NCBI GenBank assembly: GCA_018057705.1
Contig: JAGPDF010000007.1
Location: 65,125 to 106,111, forward strand
Direction: 5' to 3'
DNA from: Thermoanaerobaculia bacterium
GTDB lineage: Bacteria; Acidobacteriota; Thermoanaerobaculia; Multivoradales; JAGPDF01
Length of the DNA: 40,987 nucleotides
Of this stretch, positions 16,356 through 17,836 are shown piece after piece. The notes under the pieces were generated by a model. It did no database searches. It saw only the letters and a program-made list of their open reading frames with translations, and was not told where the DNA came from. Positions within the stretch are counted from its first letter, which is position 1. Every line of letters starts with the position of its first letter. Made by a program: the position numbers and the translations under genes.

Positions 16356-16479
16356 GCTACATAGAGTCATACGCAACAGGTGGCGTTTGGGTTTGAGGGG
16401 GTGGAAAGATGTGGAGAATTTCACGCGGTGAAGCCATCTGCAGCCCTGCTCTTGCCGGAGAGAAATGTGAGAGATAGGC

Positions 16480-16500
16480 GCCAGCCGCTTTTTGGCTGGC
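16480..16500 (+). repeat. REP-like palindrome, left of transposase
   Basis: GCCAGCC and GGCTGGC form a perfect 7-bp stem around GCTTTTT. The 13-base segment GCCAGCCGCTTTT recurs exactly, inverted, on the other side of the transposase gene at 17742-17754. Confidence 0.65.
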
Positions 16501-16746
16501 CGTCTTTCGAAGGCTCCTTGGCTGCGAGGATGCCATTTGCGACGTGGAGAGGTGATCCTCTCTGCCTCACGCATCTGGGGGGGCCGAATCGAAGGAAACC
16601 AGGAGCCGCGGTGGCGGCGAAGTCGTCCTTGTGACTTCGGAAATCGACCTCGAGCGCGAAGGTCTGTATGGCAGGCGTACCTTAGGCCAAGGGAGGCCTG
16701 AGGAGGCCACCCGGTTGCGGAGCGCTTGCAGTTCCCTGCGGGAGTT

Positions 16747-17679
16747 CTAGCCGCTTCTGGCAGCAAATCGCACCGGGAGGGCTGGGGGGAAGGCCCCTTC
16801 GGGGAACTCGACCTCTCGCACCCCGGAGCGGAACAGCTGCGATGCGTGCCGGTAGGCGGCGAAAAAGCTGAAGTAGGCCCGGCGAAGGGCTCGCCGCACC
16901 TCCGGCGCGACGGCATGAACGAGCGGTGCCGGGGCTTTCTTGATCGGGTCCGGCTCGTGATGCGGGTCCTGGCGGCAGATCGCCTCGCAACCGAGCGGCG
17001 GAATGCCCGTCTCTTCTTCGCGCTGTCGCCCGTCGGCCTCGATCTCCTCGATCATTTCCTGGATGCGAGCGCGATAGACCTGAGGCTCCAGCTTCTCCCA
17101 GCAGGGCAGCGGAGCGAGCGTGAGCTGCTCGCGCTCGATGGAGGCTTCCGGATCCAGGGGCTGGCTCTTGCGCCGCGACTTGGATTCAAGGCTCCGGTTT
17201 CTCCAGAAACCGGAGACGGTCTTGCCTTCGGCGAGGGCCCGGGCGCAGTGGGCTCCGGGCCAGTCGTAGGGCGAGGCGACGAGCCCCTCCTTGACGCCTT
17301 GTGCCAGGAGATAGGAGAGCCGGCTCACCTGGGCCGATTCCTCGCTGGAAACTTGAATCGCCTGGTATCTGCGCCCCCAGAACTTCTCGCGCCAGCGCGC
17401 CAGGCGGCCGGCCTCGCGGGCGAGGTTGGAGTTGAAGTAGTTCATGAAGGAGGCGAGCTGCTGGACGTCGGCGACACTCACGAGGAGGTGGTAGTGGTTG
17501 GAGAGGAAGGCGTAGGCGTGCACCGCCACTCCAAAGAGGCGCGCGGCGCGGGCGAGTATGCCGAGCGTGATTTCGATAAGGAGGGCCGAAGGTCGCAGGA
17601 GCAGGCGACCCTGGACCGTCCGGCAGGTGAGCTCGAACAGCGCCCCTCCGGGGGGTACGTAGCGCAGTCTTCTTGCCAT
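16747..17679 (-). CDS. REP-associated tyrosine transposase (RAYT, Y1/HUH family)
   Basis: The 310-residue protein is an IS200/IS605-related single-strand DNA endonuclease. The HUH metal motif is HYH (H62, H64) in AYAFLSNHYHLLVSV. The family frame FMNYFNSNLAREAG and KFWGRRYQAI surrounds candidate catalytic tyrosines (Y81 or Y105; the sequence alone does not decide). It starts MARRLRYVPPGGALFELTCR, typical of the family. RAYTs are single-copy, host-tamed enzymes that cut and spread REP palindromes instead of moving their own gene. The REP-like repeats on both sides fit this. The C-terminal part after residue 190 is charged and variable. A perfect 10-bp stem lies within the coding region. Confidence 0.9.
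   Translation of the reverse strand: MARRLRYVPPGGALFELTCRTVQGRLLLRPSALLIEITLGILARAARLFGVAVHAYAFLSNHYHLLVSVADVQQLASFMNYFNSNLAREAGRLARWREKFWGRRYQAIQVSSEESAQVSRLSYLLAQGVKEGLVASPYDWPGAHCARALAEGKTVSGFWRNRSLESKSRRKSQPLDPEASIEREQLTLAPLPCWEKLEPQVYRARIQEMIEEIEADGRQREEETGIPPLGCEAICRQDPHHEPDPIKKAPAPLVHAVAPEVRRALRRAYFSFFAAYRHASQLFRSGVREVEFPEGAFPPALPVRFAARSG
17192..17215 (-). repeat. Perfect 10-bp stem-loop within the transposase gene
   Basis: CTCCGGTTTC-TCCA-GAAACCGGAG (plus-strand view) is an exact inverted repeat inside the region encoding the transposase residues around FWRNRS. A smaller CTTG-GATT-CAAG palindrome directly precedes it. Confidence 0.65.
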
Positions 17680-17741
17680 GCAGGTAAGGACGGAAGAAGG
17701 CCCGGCTATCTGACAGGAGGGCGAAGATCAGTCGCCAGGTG

Positions 17742-17785
17742 AAAAGCGGCTGGCACCCTGCAGTGGAAAGCGGCTGGCACCCTGC
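17742..17785 (-). repeat. Two direct REP-like units, right of transposase
   Basis: AAAGCGGCTGGCACCCTGC occurs at 17743-17761 and 17767-17785, a 24-base period. The first 12-13 bases of each are the reverse complement of the GCCAGCCGCTTTT unit on the far side of the transposase. They lie upstream of the transposase start and of the ClC gene. Confidence 0.7.
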
Positions 17786-17820
17786 GGGCAGCAGCGGCCC
17801 CATCCCTCCCCCTGACTTGA

Positions 17821-17826
17821 TACATT
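17821..17826 (+). promoter_or_regulatory. TANNNT -10 box for ClC gene
   Basis: TACATT ends 10 bases before the ATG at 17837. A weak GGAG lies between, so the transcript is either leaderless or has a very short leader. No -35 was recognised. Confidence 0.35.
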
Positions 17827-17836
17827 CCGGAGCTTC

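Follow-up and report, generated by a model that had tools for sequence, protein, structure and literature searches.

A RAYT/TIRYT-type transposase gene of a Thermoanaerobaculia bacterium, bounded by inverted non-palindromic tags, is probably a single-strand-DNA transposon that stutters its tag heads

The window, as we call the whole 40,987-nucleotide stretch of DNA analysed here, carries an intact gene for a Y1 (HUH) transposase of the RAYT/TIRYT type (310 amino acids; positions 16747 to 17679, minus strand; Pfam Y1_Tnp, 31 bits). Together with its flanks this gene probably constitutes a transposon that moves as single-stranded DNA; it measures about 1.3 kb and has an 18-nt non-palindromic tag at each end, in inverted orientation, and both the dispersed tags and the local duplications at their heads would arise from nicking by the RAYT at GGTGC^C. 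Residue Y123 would nick single-stranded tag DNA at or next to this position and the 3' end would be joined again to a cut close by in the flank, a cycle that would produce local stutters of the tag head and more rarely carry tags, or the entire element, to a new place, as a rule not far away; we infer the cut site, the strand and the intermediate from the junctions. A wider reading, which we hold only tentatively, is that the family may form a distinct, order-specific branch of RAYTs with a linear non-hairpin tag, a GGTGC^C cut and fixed-end tandem head duplications, in which case these genomes would record many past events of RAYT cutting and rejoining in nature.

The protein belongs to the Y1 (HUH-tyrosine) superfamily, having both the HUH motif and a downstream tyrosine. 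The family alignment places NHYH at residues 61-64, the candidate catalytic tyrosine at Y123 and a conserved extension at the C-terminal end. N61-H62-x-H64 and Y123 are invariant across the 36 aligned family members, all of which match Pfam Y1_Tnp, and a Pfam search of the full-length family proteins, including their C-terminal part, returned no other domain. The tyrosine motif of these 36 proteins has the consensus YxLxQGxKEGLV, in place of Y---NP. The transposase aligns to both ISDra2 TnpA and TnpA-REP, and a profile search sets Y123 against the KYIESQ tyrosine of ISDra2 TnpA. The predicted structure (pLDDT 89.9) has its best match in the E. coli RAYT 4er8 (Foldseek E 4.6e-6), on which it superposes with a Z score of 14.3 and an rmsd of 2.8 over 158 aligned positions, and the protein as modelled thus has a RAYT fold. 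Its score against NCBIfam REP_Tyr_transpos, 44.8 bits, lies below the curated cut-off of 80 bits.

This 310-aa, multi-copy protein family is nearly confined to the order. It was found in 43 of 59 relatives, with at most 33 matches per genome, and at E <= 1e-30 in 6 of 297 genomes sampled across the phylum, five of them within this order. The sole phylum member outside the order with matches at this threshold (G269, 5.6e-42) possibly reflects horizontal transfer or an older relative. The window's own genome (5.08 Mb, 177 contigs) contains seven family members, of which the C16 and C38 copies are frameshifted. Four other Y1_Tnp genes in the same genome (L031-L034) belong to other subfamilies, and their flanks lack tag-like GGTGCCA units. 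Carriage on a plasmid was considered and rejected, the only matches being to distant transposases at about 25% identity.

The original prediction correctly placed a 13-base unit, GCCAGCCGCTTTT, and a 12-base version of it in inverted orientation around the gene. The plus strand carries one exact copy at 16480-16492 and the minus strand another at 17754-17742, and the 12-base version at 17778-17767 forms a 24-bp tandem with the neighbouring minus-strand copy. At up to one mismatch, GCCAGCCGCTTT has four matches in the window against 0.45 expected, a number reached in none of 100 shuffles. The true unit is longer than 13 nt, beginning with A-GGTGCC and ending at about TTTYC, and alignment of 76 copies from the sampled stretches gave the 18-nt consensus A-GGTGCC-A-[GC]CCG[AC]TTTYC. 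The upstream end tags of the window's element, both on the minus strand, are a proximal copy, GGGTGCCAGCCGCTTTTC, at 17741-17758, 78 bp before the ATG, and a distal copy, GGGTGCCAGCCGCTTTCC, at 17765-17782, 24 bp from the proximal one. Between the upstream tag and the ATG runs a leader (17680-17740, minus strand), which alignments show to be conserved among the genome's own paralogues, as is the downstream tag. That downstream, inverted end tag, AGGCGCCAGCCGCTTTTT, occupies 16476-16493 on the plus strand and lines up with the tags at the 3' end of four of these paralogues; its head is the variant GGCGCC, reading AGGCGCC from 16476 where AGGTGCC is usual. It happens to pair with GGCTGGC at 16494-16500, giving the perfect 7-bp stem GCCAGCC-GCTTTTT-GGCTGGC (16480-16500) that had likewise been reported from the outset. 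The 3' untranslated part, from the stop codon to the downstream tag (16494-16746, minus strand), spans about 250 bp, many relatives having about 200-280 bp. A conserved RNA in the element was considered and rejected, an Rfam search of the element having given no match and the 3' untranslated part aligning poorly among the paralogues.

We scored tag placement within 500 bp of the gene in 36 RAYTs across the order. A tag lay upstream on the same strand in 26 and downstream on the opposite strand in 19, with both present in 17, and ten had no recognisable upstream tag within this distance. Tags in the wrong orientation numbered three upstream and one downstream, and permuted-motif controls gave 0-4. 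The distance from upstream tag to ATG is often about 50-80 bp, and that from stop codon to downstream tag about 200-280 bp. The tags flanking one gene match each other more closely than in any of 20,000 permutations, and a weak correlation links tag distance to protein distance (Mantel test, rho 0.28, p 0.015). AGGTGCCANSCGMNT occurs 329 times in eight own-family genomes, against two occurrences of its reversed control. Among the 59 genomes the mean motif count was 14.0 where the RAYT is present and 0.25 where it is absent (p 5e-8, a value that overstates independence because the 16 RAYT-negative genomes are nearly all of one genus, so that the association of gene and tag draws on few independent contrasts). 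Tags are thus nearly absent from genomes without the gene.

The unit occurs well beyond this locus, so the outcome named as refuting the original prediction, a unit unique to the locus, did not arise. The 14-mer GTGCCAGCCGCTTT has 15 exact copies in the genome, and at up to one mismatch 30 copies against 10 for the reversed control, while the degenerate form of the tag, at up to three mismatches, occurs 150 times against 27. The copies are many and mostly intergenic: only 4 of 63 tags fall inside predicted genes, on a rough gene model under which 78% of the DNA is coding (binomial tail 1.6e-34). They are also clustered, 39 of 53 separate sites in the own genome having another tag within 5 kb (5.3 at random) and 21 of the 53 having a family RAYT no farther than 5 kb away (0.7 expected). 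Some contig ends of this assembly duplicate units. At G000:C5:99491-99801 (about 2030-2190 of L038) a run of N has identical tag-bearing sequence on either side; the ends of a scaffold gap are probably duplicated there, which may inflate local tag counts. Contig ends G000:C9:97693 and C170:5, and likewise C60:11 and C167:116, have tag-bearing sequence in common, so that assembly breaks coincide with tags.

To our knowledge, the RAYTs studied so far recognise hairpin REPs, and the units were originally taken for REP palindromes or REPINs moved by a standard RAYT. The RAYT fold, the cognate repeats with their intergenic dispersal and the perfect hairpin at the left window copy all agree with such a canonical REPtron. 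However, stems of at least 6 bp that pair the tag with its 3' flank were found in 11.8% of the own copies against 4.5% after shuffling, and in 3.9% of the relatives' tags against 6.6%. The tags are non-palindromic and hairpins are not consistently enriched; because of this lack of consistent enrichment over shuffled flanks, the perfect stem at 16480-16500 is a peculiarity of one copy, and we rejected the hairpin/REP model as a general rule. Neither GTAG nor GTGG appears at the foot of the tag in the consensus. A REPIN population, recognisable by frequent inverted pairs, had also been envisaged, but among 21 tag pairs less than 150 bp apart 17 were direct and only three convergent, where REPINs consist of closely spaced inverted units. 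With the Y---NP motif replaced as well, we consider a canonical REPtron improbable. What stands of the expected arrangement is a RAYT-fold gene with cognate, inverted, dispersed repeats; the repeats themselves are not REP palindromes.

Whole copies of the element point to its mobility. Genome G045 has two copies with 90.5% identity, 12 kb apart, and G016 two with 89.4% identity. Homology between the two copies extends no farther than the inverted tags: in G016 it stops a few bases from them at most, and in G045 inside or next to stuttered tag heads. The window's element lies between FtsX and ClC genes, whose orthologues stand side by side without it in four relatives; the simplest reading of this empty site is an insertion in the window's lineage, its junction short of single-base placement since the flanks in the other genus are too diverged, and a loss of the element in that genus is possible. 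Judged by these two findings, the homology bounded by the tags and the empty site, the element behaves like a TIRtron, a RAYT transposon with terminal inverted repeats. The intergenic placement of the tags would also suit protein- or RNA-level regulatory sites, such as transcription-factor boxes, with an incidental link to the RAYT. We regard this as very improbable: the tags stand inverted at both ends of the gene, their presence tracks the gene across genomes, the tags of the two sides co-vary, and the homology of the element ends at them. A separate sequence before the ClC channel gene, TTGATACATTC at 17817-17827 of the window, is retained in the four relatives with the empty site, at most one or two bases off, and is probably a promoter element.

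IS200/IS605 elements have subterminal hairpins and no inverted terminal repeats. The window's element resembles those of this group (ISDra2, IS608) in its HUH-tyrosine core, in the correspondence of Y123 to the ISDra2 KYIESQ tyrosine and in the apparent mobility of the element as a whole, whereas its ends are inverted copies of one tag. Class 2 RAYTs are defined by Y---NP, which subclass 2.3, similar in length and without REPs, also carries (Quentin et al. 2018, PMC6006769). The family shares with TnpA-REP class 2 the predicted HUH-Y fold (Z 14.3 to 4er8), the NHYH motif and cognate repeats for each gene, and differs in having no GT[AG]G foot and no conserved hairpin, Y-x-L-x-Q-G for Y---NP, and 310 aa with a long C-terminal extension; so, of the features that mark a class 2 REPtron, the RAYT fold is present, and the GT[AG]G hairpin foot, Y---NP and a score above the NCBIfam cut-off are absent.

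TIRtrons (Di Nocera et al. 2013, PMC3733652) consist of a Y1 gene, the TIRYT, lying between inverted repeats that have no relation to GTAG REPs, an arrangement that the window gene shares; the repeat families are moderately abundant and partly clustered, with three examples in Koribacter versatilis. TIRYTs are described as having a C-terminal HTH-type domain, as in subclass 2.1. Some described TIRtrons, not all, contain the motif GGGGWSAS (PMC3733652), which differs at two of eight positions from the GGTGCCAS seen here. The present family also shows as many as 33 gene matches in a genome, duplications of whole elements and head-stutter arrays, features that the covered text of that account does not describe. 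The arrangement fits TIRtrons better than REPtrons. Fixed-end head stutters are without description in the covered parts of the TIRtron and TnpA-REP accounts (PMC3733652, PMC6006769).

In front of many tags stands a tandem array whose unit is 6-14 nt of local flank plus GGTGC, broken right after GGTGC; in one example TGGACA|GGTGC is repeated and the full tag follows. A search that did not require GGTGC found 45 of 198 tags to have at least 6 nt of their flank repeated upstream. Of the 39 partial copies, 17 had their break directly behind GGTGC (uniform-break null, p 6e-9) and ten in front of it. With control anchors the own set yielded 0-5 hits but relatives 7-13, and some of the relatives' stutter list is accordingly background. 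The pattern GGTGCT-N(2-12)-GGTGCCANSC occurred 156 times against 45 for the reversed control in genomes with the RAYT, and three times against 16 in genomes without it. Within the loci examined, 14 of 33 stutter matches duplicate at least 4 nt of flank, as compared with 0.7% for the flanks of other loci. The stutter pattern is well supported. Its cause could be ordinary replication slippage on short repeats rather than RAYT cuts, with tags still spreading by way of the transposase, and in favour of slippage the local duplications measure 9-20 bp, within its reach, and some arrays extend by more copies of one unit. We think this rather unlikely, given the break fixed right after GGTGC in those 17 copies, an excess of the pattern confined to RAYT-positive genomes, and a junction homology that is limited to 0-2 nt in 26 of the 31 first copies and so speaks against simple slippage.

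Under the preferred reading, cutting by the RAYT at GGTGC^C, the choice of site may be compared with that of studied RAYTs, which cut at CT or CA as set by the GTAG guide, a GTGG guide having redirected the cut of one RAYT to CC (PMC8266576). By likeness to the GTAG guide, one may speculate that AGG/GG serves as a guide in these tags. How RAYT repeats spread is still poorly understood, and the present family has entire elements with apparent mobility, as well as matched end tags without hairpins; many loci supply fixed-breakpoint junctions, which predict a cut site and make the mechanism directly testable in vitro. Genome G013 has 19 head-stutter matches and yet a single family RAYT match.
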